A stretch of DNA of 32,445 nt from Candidatus Binatota bacterium (GTDB taxonomy: Bacteria > Desulfobacterota > Binatia > UBA1149): assembly GCA_012960245.1 (NCBI GenBank), contig DUBO01000016.1, forward strand, positions 1 through 32,445, written 5' to 3'. Below are positions 210-12,129 of this stretch, one piece after another. The notes beneath the pieces were generated by a model. That model did not search any database. It worked only from the letters and a program-made list of their open reading frames with translations, and had not been told where the DNA came from. The position numbers and the translations under genes are program-made. The first letter of the stretch is position 1; every line of letters begins with the position of its first letter.

Positions 210-1004
210 TCACTCGCAGACACCGTCACCGTCATTGTCTGTGATGCAGGTTCGGAAGAGATCGGCGGTGTTCGCGTCCCGGTTCTTGGGCCGCCGCCAC
301 TTGGTTCCGCCGTCCCGATCCCATTCGAAGCCGATGCCCTCGCTGACGTGGATACCTCCACCCCCAAAGCCGCTGGCTAAACGCACCTCGAAGTCGAACG
401 AGCCGCCGTAGTCGAAGTCGACCGTGCTGGTGGTGATGGTGTCCCAGGCAGCGTCGTCGAGGACCACCTGCCCGCCCACCTCCAGCAAGATGGTGTCCAT
501 GAAGTGCTCTCGGAACGACATCTTGCCGTCGGCGTCGTAGATCTGCCCCGTGTAGACGACAGTCCAGTGCTGCTGCCACGGCCCGTTGGGCTCGGCCCGG
601 TTCGTCCAAGCCGCGTTGGGCCCGCCCTCGAGCACCACCGGCACCACGGTCCCGTCCCCCTCGGTCAACTGGAATTTGGCCCCCAGGGGACATACAGACG
701 GCACGGCGGCCGGGGTGAAGGTCATGTCCGTGACGTTTGCGTTGGTGACGAAGTGGTCGAGGCTGGTCACGGCCTCACCCGCTTCCGTGAAATTCTCGAA
801 GCTAAAGTTCGAAAACAGGGCACCACCGACTTCGTCTCCCCATAAGATGTCGCTGTACTCACCGTAGAGCACGTTGTTCGTGGAAAAATTAGACGGCGGG
901 ATGTTGTAGTGCTTCTTTAAGAAGGATGGCGCCGACAAGGACACGGTCGTCCTCTTCGACGAAGCTCGAGCTGCGCTGACGTAGAAGCGCACATCATCCG
1001 TCAC
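210..1004 (-). CDS. Secreted-type protein with PA14-like module, sibling of the large upstream protein
   Basis: This is a 264-residue protein of unknown function. Its C-terminal half (about residues 125-255) closely resembles residues 330-457 of the neighbouring giant protein. Shared landmarks are AAWT, GPW, the GQIYDADG / GEIYDADG segment, VLDD, GIGFEWD and the NTAD.FRT end. The module looks like a PA14-type or other beta-sandwich carbohydrate-associated domain (inference). The C-terminus, DNDGDGVCE, resembles a calcium-binding DxDGDG loop. The only start is a GTG whose GTGA overlaps the upstream stop, which suggests translational coupling. No signal peptide is visible although the module looks extracellular. 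The protein may therefore be the broken-off tail of the upstream protein, split by a real or artefactual frameshift, rather than an independent gene. Confidence 0.7.
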   Translation of the reverse strand: MTDDVRFYVSAARASSKRTTVSLSAPSFLKKHYNIPPSNFSTNNVLYGEYSDILWGDEVGGALFSNFSFENFTEAGEAVTSLDHFVTNANVTDMTFTPAAVPSVCPLGAKFQLTEGDGTVVPVVLEGGPNAAWTNRAEPNGPWQQHWTVVYTGQIYDADGKMSFREHFMDTILLEVGGQVVLDDAAWDTITTSTVDFDYGGSFDFEVRLASGFGGGGIHVSEGIGFEWDRDGGTKWRRPKNRDANTADLFRTCITDNDGDGVCE

Positions 1005-4000
1005 GGAGTCACCGGGAACTCGTAGTAGGCGAAGCCGCCGACGCCCAGGTCATTGACCAGCCAGGGGATGTCGCCTGCCGCGTCCACCATCGAGACCCAG
1101 GTCGCGGTGCTCGCCGACTCTGTGGTGATGACGATCTTTGCATTGACGACGGCGACGTTGGTGATGGTCGCACCGTCCGAGAGCGAGAAGTAGGACTCGG
1201 CTCCTGTCTGCAGCGTCATCGCGCCCCCCGTAGCGCCGTAATCGATCTCGAGCGTCGTTGGTGAAGTCCACGTCGCGCTTTGAGGGTTGGGAGCGTCGAT
1301 GTTCCCAGGGGGCGTCACGCCGTAGATCTCCCGGCTGACGATGCGGCTCATGCGGTCGCCCCACTCGGTATACGCGATGGAGTAGAAGTGACAGCCGTCA
1401 TGGCCGCTCACGCCCGTGGTGCTCATGCTGGCGGGCACCTTGGGCAACAGGGTCGGCAACTCGCGTTGGACGTTTCGGCTCCAGGTCGGATTGCCGCAAC
1501 CCGCGCGAATTTGAAACGGAAAGACGCCCTCGACGTTCGGATAGTCCTCGAGCCACGCGGTGTACATCGTCGTCCAGAGGCCGAGATAGGTGTTGTAGGC
1601 CATGGTGGTATCCTCCTCACCCTGGTGCCAGAAGATGGCTCGCACAGCGTCTTCGACTCCGGCCTGACGCACACGCCAGAGCAAGCGGCCGTAGATCGTG
1701 TCTGGATTCTCGGGGTTGGCGTCATCCCGCAGGTGCTCTGCGACCGGGGTTCCGCCAACCGCTCCGTTGAACACGAGGATCGGGATACCATGTTCATCTT
1801 TGAGATTGTTGGCCAATTGAAGTCCCCACTGACCGATCGAGCCAATCCAGGCGCCGGCCTCAGCGACGGCGATATTGAAGCCGTACACGCTCGTCACCGC
1901 GGAGCCGCTGGTTCCCCAGCTGCGAACGAAGGTGTTGACCCCATTGTCCGCGGTGTTTTCGTCGTGGTGATCAGGAGCTTGAGCGTTGGACTGCCCGTCG
2001 AGCAGAATGGCATCGCCACACACGATGTCCTCGATTTGATCGACGGTGCGAAAGAAATCGTTGCTGTAGGTCCACTCGATGAACACGTCATAGAGCGCCA
2101 GCTCTGCGTCGATGGTCTGCGTGATCGAAAACACCGGCGAGGTGCTGCTGCTGGCGCTGTACGCCACGCCATCACGCGTCAGCCGGATGCGCGCCTCGGT
2201 GGCGCCACCGGTCAGCTGACCGCTGACCGTGACCTGGCACTTGTTGTTGCCGAGATCCCGTGTCAGAAAATGTAGAGCCCCCGGCGCTTCGGTGACCGTC
2301 AAGCCACACGTGGGGCACTCCTCGTCGATCGGGTCGTCACACCAATCAAGCCACGTATAGCCACTGTCAGGGTCGCAGGGACAGGCCAGCCCATCGCCGC
2401 TTGAAGCGAGGGTGGTGCAGTTCGCGTTGTTGGCATCACAGAAGGTCAGGGCCCCCACGAATTCGTTGACGCAAAAGTCTGCTGGGCTGTCGATGAGCTC
2501 GCCGCCGATGGTCACATTGTCGAAGACGAGCTCCGAGATCATGGCGTCTGCTCGGCCATGGAGCATGTTGGGATGGCCCAAGACGCTGTTGGCTGCGATT
2601 TCGATGTTCTTGAAGACGATACCCGTAATGTCCCCTGGCAATCGTTGTTCGTAGAACATGCAGGTGGATGGGCCCTGCCAGGCCCCATTGGCCGCCAGGC
2701 AGTTCCACTCGGTGACATTGGCGCAGGTCTCCTCAACGTCATCCCAGGTCCCCCCTCCTTCCAGGCAGTATTTCTCTTCCGAGTCGGAGCTGAAGATCTT
2801 GTTGTTGTAGGGATCGCCGGCCTGGGTGAGGATATAGAAGGGCTGAAGGGTGGGAAAGGGGTCGTGAACCTTGATGTTCTGAAAGACCAAACCGGGACCG
2901 CCTGGACCTCCACCCTCTGCCCGTATGCTGAAGATGCGACCGCCATTCCAGAGGTCCCAAGCGCCGCGTGAGTAGAGGACATCACTGTCCTCAATCACAA
3001 CAGTGGGCGCATCCAAGCCACTCGCATGGCAGCCCACTTCGCTGGTACAACCCACGGCGGTCATCAAGAACGCGGTACCGTTTGCGTCGTTCCACATGGT
3101 CACACGACTGAACCCGCGTCCACCCACATAGGACGAGTCGTCCTGGGTGCGTATGAAGCTGTCCTCGATCCTCACGTTACCGAAGGGATTGATGCCGTCC
3201 CCGTTGGCACGCCAGGTGAATATCTTGACCCAGCGAATATCCGTAGGTTGGGACGGATCGTAGCCTGCATAGAGCATCAAAGAGTGGTGAGCGGAGTCCG
3301 CGATGGTAATCCCTTCCACAGATGTATCGTATGCTCCCGCGATGTTGATGGGGTTATGCATCGTCTGGTCGATCAGGGGAGGGGTGGTGTGGAGTGGGTG
3401 CGCCAGGCGCGCTCCCGAAAGCGTTCCGGAGCCGAAGATCCGAATGTTGTTACCGTCGTTCCAGTCGTTGTTGCGGAGGGCTCCATAGACCATGGCGTCT
3501 CCCGGGAGGTAATAGCTTTTTCCCAGGTGGACGGGAAAACCCGCGCCAATATCGTGGATGCCGGGCTCAAAGTAGAGAATATCCCATCCATCGCCATTGA
3601 GGTCGATGCTGGCAAGGTTCGTTCCTCCTGCCTCAACAACCTGAACTCTCTGATCCAGGGGATGCGGCCGATCCTGAAGCGACGGGTTGCTAAAGATGGT
3701 GAGGGTGTGAATGGGAGGCCCCTCGTAGCCATAGCCGGTATGCTGACTGTCCATTTGTCCGTCAATATCCACCGTGATTTGCACTGGATCGCTGATGGTA
3801 ACGAACACTTTGCCACCGACCACCGTAGAGGTGCCCTTGCGCGCGGGATGTACGACACCCGTGGTGATTAGGGTCCCATCCACCCTGGAAATTTCGATCT
3901 CAACGGGATGGTTATAGGGCATTTCAAAGTTGATATAGGTGTTTGTCCATCCGGCGAGAGCGTCAAAATAACCGCCATGGCCGAAATCGTCACCACATTG

Positions 4001-6001
4001 CGCAGCGGGGCTGGGCTGATCTGCGCAATCGTATTTGCACACACCGCTCGCGTGGACACCGGCAGGGTACTGGCAGTACATATTCGTGGCGCAGTCGTTC
4101 GAGTGGATGCATGCATCGAGGACGGACGCGCTGCTGCTGCAACTACTGGTGCACAACCCGCTCTTGGCGCCGGTGATGAACGCAAAGGGCGTAAGCCATT
4201 CGCTGACGCCTACAGAGCGAAGCCGAAAGCTATAGGTCGGGGACGGCGCCAGCCCGGGCACTGGACCGTCAACGTGGAGGTGATCGTTACCGGAGGGGGC
4301 CTGACACGTCGTCCCTCCCGAGCAGATCAGGCCGGACTGACAGTAGGTATTGGCGGCGCTGCAATCGCCGCCCAAGGACACTTCTGTCTGACAGAAGCCC
4401 TGGTAGCAAGAAAGCCCCGATGCGCAGACGGTGCTGGCAGCAGAGCAGCTACCGCCGGCAGCCACTTCCATCTGGCAGGTGCCCGCCGTGCACGCCGATC
4501 CCACAGGACAGAGGGTGTGGGCGTGTGTGCAATCTCCGCCCAGCGCCTGCGATAAGTGGCAGATATTGGCGCTGCAGACCAGGCCGGAGATGCAGGACGC
4601 ACTGGCGCAGTCACCGCTGTAGGGCACACCCACTTCCGTGCGGAACACATCGGCCGTGTTCGAATCAGTGTTTTGGGGTTTTTCCCAGTTGGTGCTGCCT
4701 GCAGGATCCCATTCGAAGCCGATGCCGTTGGCGACACCGGCACCACCCACACCGTTGTGCAGGCGAAGCTCGAAGCTATGCCAGCCGCCGCCGCCGCAAT
4801 CTACCGAGCTTGAGGTCTCACTCCACCAGTCGGTATCATCGAGAACCGTTTGGCCACAAACTGTCAGCTTGACGTTGTCGTCGAAGTCCTCGCGGAAAGC
4901 CATCTGGCCATCGGCGTCGTAGATCTCTCCCGAGTAGTTGATGGTCCAGTCGGCCTGCCACGGTCCGCTTGGCTCCAGCAGGTCCGTCCACGCCGCGCTG
5001 GGCCCCAATGGATCAATTCCTCCCACCGCCCCGGAGTTTGAGCTGACGGTGTCCAGGTTCCCCGGGTTGGGGCTTGTGCTGGTGCCGGAAGGGGCGTCTA
5101 CGCCGCCGGCCCGCAAGCCCGTCACGTACTGGAGCTCAGTTGGGTCGCCACAATCCCGAGTGAGTCCGTCCGCCTGGTTGATCAGCTGGCAGACGTCGAT
5201 GGCAACCTCCTCGGCCACGCAGTCGGCGTGGGCCTCTGCGGTGCAGCCGGGCAAGAGGCTGTCGAGATCTAGACCCTCGTCACATTTCGACACGCTCCTG
5301 CCGATCCCTCCATTGGCGCCCAGGCACGCCTTGGCAATCTTGCCCTTTTGGTCCGGCTGCGGCGCGTCGCCGCCGCCCTGGCATTGATTCTCGAGTTCTT
5401 CGGCACTGTCGACCGACCCGTTCTTGAAAGCCGCTTTCGCACACGAGGTAAATTCCTTGAGGCGGGTCGACTGGCACTTTGTCGCCGCCTTCCACACTTT
5501 TTGCTGGCACTTTGCCCCAGCCTTGTCCGTCAACGCCGTCAGGAGAACTCCAGAGTCGAGATCGGCTCCGAAAATGTCGTGAGAGAGTTCAACCGCCTTG
5601 GTTGTACCTGCGCCGTTGACCGTCGAGGCATCAGTCGCCGCGTAAGAGGGGAAGCGGCTCACGCCCCCCTTGTCCAGGCCGACGCACGCCTTCTGGAAGT
5701 CGGCAATCGTCTTCTGCGTCGCCTTGCCGATCTTTCCTTTTTCGTCGGCGATCGCACAGCCCTCGAGCGTCACGAGAGTGGGATCGGACTTGCTGAGGGG
5801 CTTGCCGCTGGCATGGTTCTTCAGGCACCCGGCGATCTGCTTGGCGACGGTCGCGTCGACCTTTGTCATACCCTTGTTCAGACTGCTCACGCATTTCTGC
5901 TGGTCCTTGGTGAGTAGCTCGGCGTGGGCGTCGCCGATACCGGCCATGGAGATGGCCGCAAGCGTTACGGTGATGGCGACTAAGATGTTGGTGAGTTTAA
6001 T
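1001..6001 (-). CDS. Giant secreted multidomain protein: Cys-rich region, PA14-like module, beta-helix, SGNH acetylesterase
   Basis: About 1666 residues, probably exported, acting on an extracellular glycan (inference). In order from the proposed start: signal peptide 1-27 ending DAHA; a Cys-rich helical region, about 30-290; a PA14-like module, about 330-457; four short Cys repeats of about 27 residues with an SGLxC-type core, 461-567; a right-handed parallel beta-helix resembling GH28/GH49 enzymes, about 785-1170, with acidic segments NGDGINPFG and TQDDSSY; and a sialate O-acetylesterase (SASA/SGNH) domain, about 1325-1560. The last shows GQSNAQ (Ser1338), FWHQGEED and DGCH (Asp1535, His1538), so its triad looks intact. 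The start is uncertain. The frame is open to a TTG at 6166, but that would translate the 35-bp repeat. The signal peptide begins at an ATT at 6001 preceded by a G-rich SD-like run, and the first in-frame ATG (5947) would cut into it. The gene has lower GC than the ligA side of the window. Confidence 0.85.
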   Translation of the reverse strand: MKLTNILVAITVTLAAISMAGIGDAHAELLTKDQQKCVSSLNKGMTKVDATVAKQIAGCLKNHASGKPLSKSDPTLVTLEGCAIADEKGKIGKATQKTIADFQKACVGLDKGGVSRFPSYAATDASTVNGAGTTKAVELSHDIFGADLDSGVLLTALTDKAGAKCQQKVWKAATKCQSTRLKEFTSCAKAAFKNGSVDSAEELENQCQGGGDAPQPDQKGKIAKACLGANGGIGRSVSKCDEGLDLDSLLPGCTAEAHADCVAEEVAIDVCQLINQADGLTRDCGDPTELQYVTGLRAGGVDAPSGTSTSPNPGNLDTVSSNSGAVGGIDPLGPSAAWTDLLEPSGPWQADWTINYSGEIYDADGQMAFREDFDDNVKLTVCGQTVLDDTDWWSETSSSVDCGGGGWHSFELRLHNGVGGAGVANGIGFEWDPAGSTNWEKPQNTDSNTADVFRTEVGVPYSGDCASASCISGLVCSANICHLSQALGGDCTHAHTLCPVGSACTAGTCQMEVAAGGSCSAASTVCASGLSCYQGFCQTEVSLGGDCSAANTYCQSGLICSGGTTCQAPSGNDHLHVDGPVPGLAPSPTYSFRLRSVGVSEWLTPFAFITGAKSGLCTSSCSSSASVLDACIHSNDCATNMYCQYPAGVHASGVCKYDCADQPSPAAQCGDDFGHGGYFDALAGWTNTYINFEMPYNHPVEIEISRVDGTLITTGVVHPARKGTSTVVGGKVFVTISDPVQITVDIDGQMDSQHTGYGYEGPPIHTLTIFSNPSLQDRPHPLDQRVQVVEAGGTNLASIDLNGDGWDILYFEPGIHDIGAGFPVHLGKSYYLPGDAMVYGALRNNDWNDGNNIRIFGSGTLSGARLAHPLHTTPPLIDQTMHNPINIAGAYDTSVEGITIADSAHHSLMLYAGYDPSQPTDIRWVKIFTWRANGDGINPFGNVRIEDSFIRTQDDSSYVGGRGFSRVTMWNDANGTAFLMTAVGCTSEVGCHASGLDAPTVVIEDSDVLYSRGAWDLWNGGRIFSIRAEGGGPGGPGLVFQNIKVHDPFPTLQPFYILTQAGDPYNNKIFSSDSEEKYCLEGGGTWDDVEETCANVTEWNCLAANGAWQGPSTCMFYEQRLPGDITGIVFKNIEIAANSVLGHPNMLHGRADAMISELVFDNVTIGGELIDSPADFCVNEFVGALTFCDANNANCTTLASSGDGLACPCDPDSGYTWLDWCDDPIDEECPTCGLTVTEAPGALHFLTRDLGNNKCQVTVSGQLTGGATEARIRLTRDGVAYSASSSTSPVFSITQTIDAELALYDVFIEWTYSNDFFRTVDQIEDIVCGDAILLDGQSNAQAPDHHDENTADNGVNTFVRSWGTSGSAVTSVYGFNIAVAEAGAWIGSIGQWGLQLANNLKDEHGIPILVFNGAVGGTPVAEHLRDDANPENPDTIYGRLLWRVRQAGVEDAVRAIFWHQGEEDTTMAYNTYLGLWTTMYTAWLEDYPNVEGVFPFQIRAGCGNPTWSRNVQRELPTLLPKVPASMSTTGVSGHDGCHFYSIAYTEWGDRMSRIVSREIYGVTPPGNIDAPNPQSATWTSPTTLEIDYGATGGAMTLQTGAESYFSLSDGATITNVAVVNAKIVITTESASTATWVSMVDAAGDIPWLVNDLGVGGFAYYEFPVTP

Positions 6002-6065
6002 GGTAGATCCCCCCCGGCGACCCGCGACCCTACCACCACTGCCGACCTCCTGTCTAGGGGTTCGA
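6002..6065 (-). promoter_or_regulatory. Leader of the giant secreted gene, with an alternative SD-GTG start
   Basis: On the minus strand a good Shine-Dalgarno, AGGAGG (6051-6046), sits 6 bases before a GTG (6039-6037). That GTG opens a 19-codon frame ending at 5980, which overlaps the start of the large gene out of frame. One extra G in the seven-G run (6009-6015) would join this GTG to the signal peptide. The complement of GGGGT-TCG-ACCCC (6057-6069) can form a hairpin that competes with the C5/G5 hairpin of the adjacent repeat for the same bases, 6068 and 6069. Leader peptide, sequence error and true start all remain possible. Confidence 0.4.
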
Positions 6066-6100
6066 CCCCCCCAGGTGGGGGTTTTTGGGCCGGTGTCGGG
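6066..6100. repeat. 35-bp direct repeat, right copy
   Basis: A perfect second copy of bases 3-37. It lies between the CHR transporter stop (6117) and the giant secreted gene, so on the minus strand it is in that gene's upstream region. The hairpin CCCCC-AGGT-GGGGG is at 6068-6081 with T at 6082-6086. The two copies bracket about 6.06 kb carrying the two secreted-protein genes. It could be a shared upstream regulatory element, a recombination remnant or a dispersed repeat family. Confidence 0.9.
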
Positions 6101-6116
6101 GTCCGAGGGCGTCCCG

Positions 6117-7370
6117 TCAGAACAGGAACCAACCGGCGATTCCTGCTGCGGGGATAACCGCGACAAGCCCGATCTCGAAACGCACCAGGGCGACGAACGC
6201 CACCACCATGATCAGCAACGAAGGCAGGATCGTCGATACGTACTCGGCTACAGGGACCTGGCCCTGCGGCACCGAGTTCCCCAGTATTATGACGCCGGCG
6301 ACGGCGATCATGCCCACCACGGCCGCTCGAATTCCGCGCAGGGCTCCCTGCGCGCGACGGCTTGCCTTGATGTGGTCAAAAACCTGGGAGGCGGCAATCA
6401 TCAGTACGGCCGGCGGGCCGAAGATAGCCGCCGTGGCAACCAGCCCGCCGACTATTCCCCAAAGCGGGCCATGTTGTTCCATTGCTACCTTCTGTCCGAT
6501 GAACGCCGCGCAGATCACGATAGGCCCGGGTGTCATCTGGCTGAAAGCAATACCGTCGTTGAACTCTGCGACGGTCAACCAGCCGGCGTCTGTGACCACC
6601 GCGTCCATGATCAGCGGGATGAAGACGTAACCGCCGCCGAACAACAACACGCCTAATCCCCCGAAGGTCAGACCGATCTGGGCGATGCCGTCGGGGTCAA
6701 GGGGAGGGGCCGCGAGGTAGAGTCCGGCAAGGGACAGTGGCAGGGCAACCATGGCGAGCAGGCGGGCAACGGGTAACGGTGTCCCAGGAGGCGGCGGAGA
6801 ATCGTCCGGTTGCAAAAGCGCCATGCCCGCGATCGCTGCACCTGCGAGTATGCCCAGGTTGACCCACAGCTTGATCGATGGGGGCGAAACGAACAGGAGC
6901 ACCGCTGACCCGACGGCGAGTAACCAGGTGAGGGGTTCCCGTACGCACTTGCCCCACATGCGTAGAACGACACTGAAGATCACTGCCGATACCGCGGGAA
7001 TCAGGCCGGCAAAAAACCCGTCCAGCACCGCCATGTCCTGTGCGACTCCGAAGTACAGGAAGGTCAGGATCGTAACCAGGACGTAGGTGGGCGTCAGGAT
7101 GCCCACCACGGAAGCAAGTGCCCCGAGCGATCCGCCGCAGCCATACCCGACGTAAGCCGCCGTGTTTACCGCCTGGGGACCGGGAAGAACGTTGGCAAGC
7201 GAGATACCATCGAGCATGTCCTCCTGCTCGATCCAGCCGAGGCGCCGGGCAAACACGTCCTCGACCACGGAGATCACGGCCATGAAGCCGCCAAACGAGA
7301 CGCAGCCTATCTTGAAGAATTCCCAGCCTAGTCGCAGGGGGTTTTTCCGGCTGGTGGGCGCAGGAGTCAT
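6117..7370 (-). CDS. chrA: CHR-family (chromate-type) ion transporter
   Basis: A 417-residue membrane protein of the chromate ion transporter family, whose known members export chromate, probably by acting on a sulfate-like oxyanion. Two homologous halves are visible, as expected for the long (two-domain) type. The N-terminal half has FFKIGCVSFGGFMAVI and LANVLPGPQAVNTAAYVGY. The C-terminal half has GLGVLLFGGGYVFIPL and FSQMTPGPIVICAAFIG. These are the duplicated FGG and PGP signatures, and about ten hydrophobic segments follow. I chose the ATG at 7370, giving a protein starting MTPAPTSRK. It lies 4 bases after the stop of the sulfotransferase fusion, so the two are probably one transcription unit. 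The substrate is not shown by sequence; given the partner, sulfate or another oxyanion is as plausible as chromate. Confidence 0.88.
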   Translation of the reverse strand: MTPAPTSRKNPLRLGWEFFKIGCVSFGGFMAVISVVEDVFARRLGWIEQEDMLDGISLANVLPGPQAVNTAAYVGYGCGGSLGALASVVGILTPTYVLVTILTFLYFGVAQDMAVLDGFFAGLIPAVSAVIFSVVLRMWGKCVREPLTWLLAVGSAVLLFVSPPSIKLWVNLGILAGAAIAGMALLQPDDSPPPPGTPLPVARLLAMVALPLSLAGLYLAAPPLDPDGIAQIGLTFGGLGVLLFGGGYVFIPLIMDAVVTDAGWLTVAEFNDGIAFSQMTPGPIVICAAFIGQKVAMEQHGPLWGIVGGLVATAAIFGPPAVLMIAASQVFDHIKASRRAQGALRGIRAAVVGMIAVAGVIILGNSVPQGQVPVAEYVSTILPSLLIMVVAFVALVRFEIGLVAVIPAAGIAGWFLF

Positions 7371-7374
7371 GGTC

Positions 7375-8736
7375 TCATGCAAAGCGCACGATGAGGTGCT
7401 CGGAGATTGCCCACAGGATCCTGACCGCAATGCCGGGGTCGTTCTCTTCGAGCGCGGCGAAATCCTGCCGGCGCAGGTGAAACACCCTGGAAGTTGTCAG
7501 CGCCCGCACGGTGGCTGTTCGTGGCTTTCCGGTAATGAAGCCCAGTTCGCCGAACGGCGCGCCGTCGGCCAGGACGGCGATCTCCTCGTCGTCCTGCAGC
7601 ACTTCGAGTGAACCGGAAATAACGAAGAACAGGTCGTTTGTCGGTTCCTCCTGCCACATCACCGTGTCACCGGGCTCGTAGTGCCGCTCTTCGAGGTAGG
7701 CGAGCAGCCGAAGGATCTCGGCGTGGGAGAGCCCCTTGAGGAAGTAGACGCGCTCGGTGAGGAGTGAGAGCTGGTGCTGCCGTCGCTCGAGGTCTTCGCT
7801 GTCCATGAAGGCTTTCTGCGATTCCTTGGACCGCCGGTTTTCTTCGTCGAAGCCGGCGAGGTCTTCGGGGGTGAAGACCTGCTCCTGGCCCGGCTGGGTA
7901 AAAACACGCTCGTAGCCCAACTGGTCAAGTACGTCTCCGGCGACGGACTCGATGATACGGACAGACTCCTCGCTCATCTCGCGAAGAAATTTGCGCGAGT
8001 TGTCTTTCATGACGGGCTGGTCGAGGTTCTGCCATAGTTGGCTCTTGCTGGCCGTGCTCACCGCATCACTGGAATCGTGGAAGCTGAGCATTTCTTCGCG
8101 GAACGGGATGTCGAGGAACTTGCAGCAATCGCGAAGAATATTCTCAGGGTTCTCCAACAAGTCCTCGTAGCAGAGGCTGAAGAACCGTTGCGGTCCTATG
8201 CGCTCGCGCTCGGACAGGCACATGCGCTGTAGTTCAGCCCATCGCCTGGCAATGTGATACGGATGCTTCTCGCCGATGACGGCCTTGGTGAAGGACAGGG
8301 TGACGTCCCTGCCATCCCGGTAGAGGTAAATGTATTTCGGGTCTCCGAAGTAGGCATCCAGCTGGGAAGCGAACTCGATATAGCCCATGCTTTTACAGGC
8401 CCACATGTCCTGCCCGTGGGCTTCGGCATAGGTGTCCATTATCGCTCCGAATATGGCCACCAGTGAGCGCTCGCGACAGCGCGATGCGATGTCGGCCCGG
8501 TCGAGCGTCTCCAGTGGGTTCCACGGAACGGGATTGCGCTCGATGAGAGCGCAGCAGTCATCGACGAGCTGATGCCAGTTGGAGTCCTTGGAGATGTCGC
8601 CGAAAGACGCCACCAGGGGCATCATGCGCGTAAGAACGTGTGCGGGGTGGGGCGCGGCGATTCCTGCCTGCGCGAGCATAAGCCTGAGCAGGTTGGAACC
8701 GGATCGCTGCTCACCGACGATGAAGACTGCTTTCAT
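7375..8736 (-). CDS. Sulfotransferase fused to a cyclic-nucleotide-binding domain
   Basis: 453 residues with two domains. Residues 1-280 are a PAPS-dependent sulfotransferase. The 5'-phosphosulfate loop is GEQRSGSNLL (8-17), and the 3'-phosphate site is YRDGRDVTLS (139-148), carrying the expected Arg and Ser. Residues 325-450 form a CRP-type cNMP-binding beta-roll. Its phosphate-binding cassette, FGELGFITGKPRTATV, has the conserved Glu397 and Arg406, so nucleotide binding looks possible. A charged linker of about 45 residues joins the domains. No DNA-binding helix-turn-helix follows the roll, so this is more likely allosteric control of an enzyme than a transcription factor (inference). The start is the ATG at 8736, because the longer TTG frame at 8745 adds only three residues before the beta-strand. 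The acceptor substrate is unknown. The gene directly precedes the CHR transporter. Confidence 0.88.
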   Translation of the reverse strand: MKAVFIVGEQRSGSNLLRLMLAQAGIAAPHPAHVLTRMMPLVASFGDISKDSNWHQLVDDCCALIERNPVPWNPLETLDRADIASRCRERSLVAIFGAIMDTYAEAHGQDMWACKSMGYIEFASQLDAYFGDPKYIYLYRDGRDVTLSFTKAVIGEKHPYHIARRWAELQRMCLSERERIGPQRFFSLCYEDLLENPENILRDCCKFLDIPFREEMLSFHDSSDAVSTASKSQLWQNLDQPVMKDNSRKFLREMSEESVRIIESVAGDVLDQLGYERVFTQPGQEQVFTPEDLAGFDEENRRSKESQKAFMDSEDLERRQHQLSLLTERVYFLKGLSHAEILRLLAYLEERHYEPGDTVMWQEEPTNDLFFVISGSLEVLQDDEEIAVLADGAPFGELGFITGKPRTATVRALTTSRVFHLRRQDFAALEENDPGIAVRILWAISEHLIVRFA

Positions 8737-8856
8737 GTTGCGCAACCATTTTTGATTGTCGGCTATAAATCAAGGCCCGCGGTCCGGCCCCCCCCGCGGT
8801 GGTACTGGTCGCTGCCTCGGTGTCGCGGCCGCCGCCCAGCCGCCCCACGCCAAGCG
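8737..8856 (-). promoter_or_regulatory. Intergenic region upstream of the sulfotransferase fusion, with inverted repeat
   Basis: 120 bases between the acylphosphatase stop and the sulfotransferase start. An AT-rich patch holds TTGATT (8752-8757) and AATCAA (8768-8773), a perfect 6-bp inverted repeat with a 10-base spacer just upstream of the start. A GC-rich part (8776-8803) contains two CCGCGG palindromes. A promoter is expected here, but I cannot identify a convincing -35/-10 pair. Confidence 0.3.
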
Positions 8857-11288
<2,432 letters not shown>

Positions 11289-11403
11289 CTACCACGTGCA
11301 CAGGCAGAATATAGGGCGGCGGGGTGCAGAAAGGGTCGCCACGCTAGGTTCCCGGGGGGTAGAATGAATGGATGTCCACCGCCTTGGCGGGGGAGGGGGT
11401 TAC

Positions 11404-12129
11404 ATGGCTGGCAATCAAGTGGCAAAGGCGCCTCACGGCATTACGGCTTATTTCCTGAGCCTGGTTTTTCTGGCCTCGGCCGGCCTGGTGCTGGCCACGG
11501 CCGGCCCGCCCGCCGGTCCGCCCGCTCCGATGCCGAGCTGGGTCGAATGGCCTGGCGGCGACCACGCTATAACTACCACCGAGGTCACCGTGGAGCAGTA
11601 TCTCGCCTGCGTTGACGAGGGTGCCTGCGATCCGGCCAACCACCGCGACTGCAACTCGGCCGACCCCGCGCGCGTGTTGCACCCCATGAACTGCGTCAAC
11701 TGGTTCGGCGCCTCCCAGTACTGCGCCTGGTCGGGCGGACGCTTGTGTGCCGAAGACGAATGGATCGATGCCTGCGGTGGCGCGGGCGAGGGTCGCGGCT
11801 GGCCTTACGGCTACGTGTTTGAAAGTGGCAGGTGCAACGTGCAGTCGACCAGCGAGCCGGTAGAAGGGCTCGAGAGGGCCAGCGCCCCGGTGGCCAGCAT
11901 GCCCGGTTGCGAGGGCGGCCTGGGTGGCTTGTACGACATGGCCGGCAATGTGAGCGAGTGGCTGGCGGCCTGCAAGCAGGACTACTGCAAGTTTCGCGGC
12001 GCCGGTTATCTGAGCAACGATCCGGTCGACGTGTTTACCGGTTGTGGCGGCGTGTGTGCGGGCAACAAGAAGCCCTTCATGTCGGGCACGGTCGGGATAC
12101 GCTGCTGCAGGGATATTACGGCCGGTTAA
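11404..12129 (+). CDS. Secreted, cysteine-rich FGE/SUMF1-fold protein
   Basis: 241 residues. A hydrophobic signal sequence (about residues 10-35) precedes a formylglycine-generating-enzyme-like (FGE-sulfatase) domain. Recognisable parts are the [14 protein letters not shown] opening, [40 protein letters not shown] and a C-terminal VGIRCC. At least a dozen cysteines suggest a disulfide-stabilised exported protein. Many such paralogues lack sulfatase-modifying activity, and no sulfatase is visible nearby, so catalysis is not claimed. The start is the ATG at 11404, behind a GGGGGAGGGGG run; an ATG at 11368 would add 12 residues without improving the signal peptide. The stop overlaps the convergent cold-shock gene's stop in a TTAA. 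Confidence 0.85.

Follow-up and report, generated by a model that had tools for sequence, protein, structure and literature searches.

The window, a 32,445-nucleotide contig of a Candidatus Binatota genome (G000), encodes a sulfotransferase fused to a cyclic-nucleotide-binding (cNMP) domain, followed at once by a transporter of the CHR family. We give a probability of roughly 0.55 to the reading that this pair is a horizontally acquired, probably co-transcribed cassette for PAPS-dependent sulfation, in which the CHR protein would carry an anion of the pathway and the cNMP domain would switch the enzyme. The features concerned are given below in window positions.

6073..8853, no strand: acquired stretch, absent from the genus-mate G001
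7375..8736, minus strand: sulfotransferase-cNMP fusion gene, 453 aa
Layout of the fusion protein: Sulfotransfer_3 at residues 4-213, C-terminal part and linker to about residue 328, cNMP-binding domain at about 335-453
8692..8715, minus strand: 5'-phosphosulfate-binding loop GEQRSGSN, residues 8-15
8290..8328, minus strand: 3'-phosphate-binding motif YLYRDGRDVTLSF, residues 137-149, with R140 and S148
7444..7689, minus strand: cNMP_binding core, residues 350-431 (Pfam E 4e-20, 72.1 bits, cut-off 27.5)
Residues 395-410 of the fusion protein: phosphate-binding cassette FGELGFITGKPRTATV, with E397 and R406
6117..7370, minus strand: CHR gene (Chromate_transp twice) of the sulfotransferase-linked clade, 417 aa

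The fusion proposed in the initial annotation was found to be real, with both domains assigned by Pfam within a single ORF. The Sulfotransfer_3 match (E 8e-28, 98.7 bits, cut-off 27) covered profile positions 2-215 of 216. A full-length homologue, 85% identical, in another genome excluded a chance ORF or an assembly join as the source of the fusion, and the flanks of the cassette, which match those of G001, excluded assembly chimera or contamination. For the sulfotransferase part, the closest solved structures were the CurM sulfotransferase and the tyrosylprotein sulfotransferases, with which the PAPS-binding loops and the conserved Arg/Ser align. In CurM (4gbm), the PRSGST loop aligned with GEQRSGSN of the window enzyme, as did the 3'-phosphate-binding motif. 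Unlike CurM, the window enzyme is the product of a stand-alone gene instead of being part of a polyketide synthase, and it has a C-terminal cNMP domain and a CHR partner.

For comparison we have used a clade of 21 sulfotransferases (20 genomes and one plasmid type), with relatives 38-86% identical to that of the window. The members came from a 321-genome sample of the class of the homologue's genome (L032), from order-wide searches and from a plasmid search, which contributed Serratia. R11, S12, G13 and S14 were invariant in 21/21 members, and so were R140, D141, R143 and D144 of the 3'-phosphate-binding motif, with S148 nearly so. H30 and H33, nearly invariant across the clade, are candidates for the catalytic base. 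As a separate observation, G000 (2.8 Mb) contains 11 Sulfotransfer_3 matches, of which the clade search placed the window's alone in the clade; its genus-mates have 8-9.

The gene clusters of seven of the 21 members include sat, cysC or a fusion of the two (L032, G276, G337, G470, G489, G496 and Serratia). The set on a conjugative plasmid of Serratia sp. JSRIV004/002 comprises sat-cysC, tauE, the sulfotransferase gene, cysQ, whose product removes the by-product PAP, and chrA. Its sulfotransferase (46% identity) and its CHR protein fall in the same clades as those of the window. This automatically annotated operon differs from the window cassette in having no cNMP domain and in providing its own PAPS synthesis and PAP removal, and the literature searched held no description of it as a system. 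The window cassette is without PAPS-synthesis genes; homologues of ATP sulfurylase and APS kinase are found in G000 (G000:C12 and G000:C36). Given sat/cysC in seven clusters, cysQ in Serratia and these host homologues, the window sulfotransferase is best read as PAPS-dependent and as using host PAPS.

The CHR gene begins, as the initial annotation had stated, exactly 4 bases after the sulfotransferase stop, with bases 7371-7374 between the stop and the CHR ATG. Its product contains two Chromate_transp stretches (Pfam E 7e-73, 244.6 bits) and scored 186.6 against the NCBIfam chromate efflux model TIGR00937 (cut-off 171.7). It thus resembles the long-chain ChrA/CHR chromate transporters, which likewise have two such domains, and differs from them in belonging to a separate clade with its own motif signature and in its sulfation gene context. 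The initial annotation had supposed that sulfation and transport could be linked, and had named separation of the two genes in relatives as the observation that would speak against it. We found the CHR gene in the same cluster as the sulfotransferase gene in 18/21 clade members, in either order, which makes the link much stronger than the sequence of the window alone could show. In these 18, the genes either adjoin directly or have between them sat-cysC (G496), an APS-kinase fusion (G489) or cysQ (Serratia); in G513 the CHR gene was 5.6 kb away, and in G516 and G490 none was nearby. The clade genomes hold only 0-3 CHR genes each, usually with two domain matches per gene, so chance does not explain the adjacency. 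A rough chance model (about 1% per genome) gave a binomial p near 1e-32 for 18/21, a value that ignores shared descent and serves as a guide only. No paper uniting sulfotransferase, chromate transporter and PAPS was retrieved by the literature search.

Phylogenetic analysis agreed with this association. A single branch (SH-aLRT 98.6) set the 20 sulfotransferase-linked CHR proteins apart from 13 unlinked paralogues, the latter coming nearly all from the same genomes; one of the 20, that of G518, neighbours a more distant sulfotransferase. Linked CHRs carry the signature FGG[FY]M, mostly joined by LPGPxAVN, where most unlinked paralogues show FGGPxGQI and LPGPEAQQ. The window CHR reads SFGGFMAVI and LPGPQAVN at these places and still satisfies the family model, the FGGPxGQI/LPGPEAQQ pair being a subfamily mark that the model does not require. 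The sulfotransferase and CHR trees showed the same three main groups, namely window-L032, G276-G337-G470-G471 (not resolved as a clade in the sulfotransferase tree) and the rest.

Other genes were seen in some of these clusters. In the order of G180, PhnD-like (Phosphonate-bd) proteins lie beside the CHR-sulfotransferase pair (L110:10100-12116, L140-L144, L146-L148), in two or three copies at some loci; L110 showed neither an ABC permease nor an ATPase alongside them. The same clusters also contain a second and only distantly related sulfotransferase (about 28% identity; L142:9123-10337, L143:6086-7354, L144:4272-5429, L151:4491-5714), and at L151 it is the one adjoining the CHR gene.

In the mechanism that we propose, host ATP sulfurylase and APS kinase, identified by homology, would make PAPS, and the sulfotransferase would pass the sulfuryl group on to a small acceptor, one that many bacteria are likely to have. 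This step is suggested by the intact PAPS-binding residues, by the lack of pathway-specific genes in the cassette and by the retention of the cassette after transfer between classes. The sulfation of a surface compound, suggested in the initial annotation, received no support, as no polysaccharide gene set adjoined the sulfotransferase-CHR pair in the clusters examined (gene lists inspected by eye) or on the annotated plasmid. The CHR protein would carry an anion of the same pathway. Sulfate for PAPS synthesis seems the likeliest cargo, an assignment that we hold with somewhat less than even confidence.

The alternative to sulfate supply is less probable, though by no means slight: the CHR protein would work outward, as exporter of the sulfated product or as overflow valve for surplus sulfate or its analogues (chromate, selenate). 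Characterised CHR proteins do expel chromate (PMC2751784; PMC5699817), and the family has been tied to chromate efflux with a possible chromate/sulfate antiport (PMC2751784 and a title cited there). The Serratia set has, besides CHR, its own TauE/SafE permease next to the sulfotransferase, which favors export and weakens a pure sulfate-import role. Against an overflow valve, the response of Synechocystis to ethylene fits uptake better: chrA (slr1457, of this or another CHR clade) falls together with the sulfate ABC transporter slr1452-1453 and the sulfotransferase sll5042 (PMC6508509). Between supply of sulfate and export of product, we lean slightly to supply; a role of the CHR protein in sulfate or oxyanion stress is possible. 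On pSYSM of Synechocystis, a CHR gene also lies within a few kb of sulfotransferases, those of the synechan (xss) cluster for a sulfated exopolysaccharide. Those enzymes are very distant from the window's (about 20% identity) and stand among many glycosyltransferases, and the CHR gene lies beyond a transposase, so that the link may be chance.

We have also looked for the fusion in other genomes. The scan of genome contigs yielded a single full-length homologue, in the Acidiferrobacteraceae MAG L032, 85% identical without gaps, and a CHR gene directly follows it, so that the fusion with a CHR neighbour recurred once. The L032 order is sulfotransferase-cNMP, CHR and a gene, truncated where the contig ends, that encodes both an ATP-sulfurylase and an APS-kinase domain; the CHR spacing in L032 equals that of the window if the start is read from the junction sequences as GTG 4 nt after the stop. 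At another contig end (L111:3688-3900, G098:C85), the opening 44 codons of the L032 gene recur with few differences before the sequence diverges; a strain variant probably shows here what lies upstream in the L032 operon.

A cNMP domain was present in only two of the 21 clade members, those of the window and L032, and absent from the 19 non-fused sulfotransferases (38-58% identity). Residues up to about 328, comprising the sulfotransferase C-terminal part and the linker, are common to the fusion protein and its non-fused relatives. The 321-genome sample gave four close relatives that match residues 1-328 and end soon after; their C-termini lie about 20 residues or less from the position past which the window protein goes on into its cNMP domain. 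The domain was thus most simply added after the ancestral C-terminus in the window-L032 branch. At thresholds that would miss distant fusions, no other sulfotransferase-cNMP fusion appeared in the window's class (148 genomes), in the orders of the L032 genome (109), G180 (57) and G276 (6) or in the 321-genome sample. Searches of viral contigs and phages returned no relatives, and no description of such a fusion was found in the literature search.

The initial annotation had noted intact Glu397 and Arg406. Their numbering is exact, and both occupy canonical positions in a complete phosphate-binding cassette. The best solved-structure matches of the cNMP domain were cGMP-dependent kinases, and E397/R406 of FGELGFITGKPRTATV aligned with FGE...R.AT in PDB chains of PKG; both residues are conserved in the L032 homologue. 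A threonine directly follows the cassette arginine. Threonine at this position is typical of PKG sites and alanine of PKA sites, a hint of cGMP that is not to be relied on. Between the window and L032 copies, the sulfotransferase part gave dN 0.075 and dS about 2.6, and the cNMP part dN 0.133 and dS 1.16. With dN/dS well below 1 in both domains and only 52% agreement at third codon positions, both halves of the fusion are under purifying selection. Both hosts could plausibly make a cyclic nucleotide, since they have class III cyclase homologues, a two-domain one in G000 and its genus and at least six in the L032 genome. Domain, residues and selection are consistent with binding of cAMP or cGMP, which would switch the enzyme. 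An AlphaFold2 model built from a two-row alignment had a pLDDT of 41 and is the basis of no claim.

The same sulfation module could be at work with a cNMP domain that is a structural or protein-interaction part, no longer responsive to cyclic nucleotides. Many bacterial cNMP-fold domains do not bind cyclic nucleotides, and the cNMP half of the fusion evolves slightly faster than the sulfotransferase half. However, the full signature, E397 and R406 included, is kept in both copies with synonymous sites near saturation, and we regard a non-responsive domain as unlikely. Cyclic-nucleotide gating of the fused sulfotransferase is a good hypothesis, confined to one transferred branch; because the non-fused relatives have no cNMP domain, such control is at most a feature of that branch. 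In G276 (L107:10737-11411) and G470 (L152:3074-3865), CRP-family genes lie divergent from cysC-CHR-sulfotransferase, and the cNMP domain of the G276 protein has the cassette Glu and Arg intact; in FNR-like neighbours of G512, G513 and G517 these residues are not obviously kept. One could be inclined to read this as regulation of transcription in one branch and regulation built into the enzyme in another, although two cases are few. The CRP-family domain and the fused cNMP domain are only weakly alike.

The initial annotation had compared the fusion with the cAMP-gated protein acetyltransferases of mycobacteria. One of these, the GNAT enzyme Pat, is regulated by cAMP and likewise combines group transfer with a cNMP domain. 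Against the NCBIfam Pat model, only the cNMP part of the window protein gave a match (E 7e-7, score 28.4 against an equivalog cut-off of 460), and Pfam assigned no acetyltransferase domain to the fusion protein. The window's cNMP domain is C-terminal, whereas the Pat model was matched at its start, and the catalytic folds differ. The likeness would thus be one of working principle, an analogy without a shared family.

Comparison with the genus-mates supported the acquisition of the cassette. Where the window has 2.78 kb, G001 has 91 bp between the same flanks, which on both sides are 92-95% identical to the window in DNA sequence. Neither G001 nor G002 has any CHR gene, and the sulfotransferase clade was found in no other genome of the window's class among those searched. 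The window LigA is 95-96% identical to those of G001/G002 and 48% to that of the L032 genome, while identity to L032 is 85% for the sulfotransferase and 81% for the CHR protein. The two genomes appear to belong to different classes, and the simplest account is that G000 recently acquired the cassette from a relative of the L032 organism. The G+C content of the two cassette genes is 0.60 and 0.63, against 0.67 in the neighbouring ligA. The cassette ends showed neither direct nor inverted repeats of at least 9 nt, and there were no mobile-element genes inside the cassette. A promoter scan of the cassette gave no sigma-70-like site, and one terminator-like site, on the plus strand, was no better than shuffles.

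The surroundings of the cassette also differ among these genomes. After the CHR gene, the window encodes on the minus strand (1001-6166) a large protein, rich in Cys, that contains a SASA esterase domain and whose N-terminus aligns with an ATG start in G001; its start codon seems changed beside the insertion, since the window reads ...STIKLTN there. G002 has a different gene after ligA, possibly phosphotriesterase-like as judged by eye (L105:1-1650, G002:C28), so that this position seems variable within the genus. A protein with an FGE-sulfatase (formylglycine-generating-like) domain is encoded close by (11368-12129, plus strand); it is also present in G001 and G002 and hence is not part of the cassette.

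Movement between classes, together with the location of one relative on a conjugative plasmid near transposases, could suggest that the CHR and sulfotransferase genes are neighbours through hitch-hiking on mobile DNA, with no shared function. However, the gene order varies, with cysC, sat-cysC or cysQ in between, the association persists to CHR identities of about 40%, and most cases lie on ordinary contigs with housekeeping-looking neighbours as judged by eye (e.g., glutamine synthetase), which makes this explanation very improbable. Slightly more remote still is transport of bicarbonate, a role once suggested for the CHR proteins found in chemolithoautotrophs, since the CHR listed as a potential inorganic-carbon transporter in Thiomicrospira neither rescued an E. 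coli test strain nor was induced at low inorganic carbon (PMC12628692), and the neighbours of the clade CHRs are sulfate-activation genes.

CHR proteins are widespread though chromate is rare in most habitats, which raises the question of what they natively carry. That they occur in varied genomic contexts has been noted (PMC2751784). We tentatively propose, at a little under even odds, that a distinct CHR subfamily natively serves PAPS-dependent sulfation by moving sulfate or product, and that in one horizontally spread branch the partner sulfotransferase is directly gated by a cyclic nucleotide. The empty site and the cross-class transfer show that the sulfotransferase and CHR genes move as a unit, and a CHR clade tied to sulfotransferases and PAPS enzymes offers a concrete hypothesis on the native role of CHR, testable in the culturable Serratia. 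Direct cyclic-nucleotide control of sulfation, if true, would be a new kind of output for bacterial cAMP/cGMP signalling, and the fusion would be, as far as our searches show, the first second-messenger-gated sulfotransferase.
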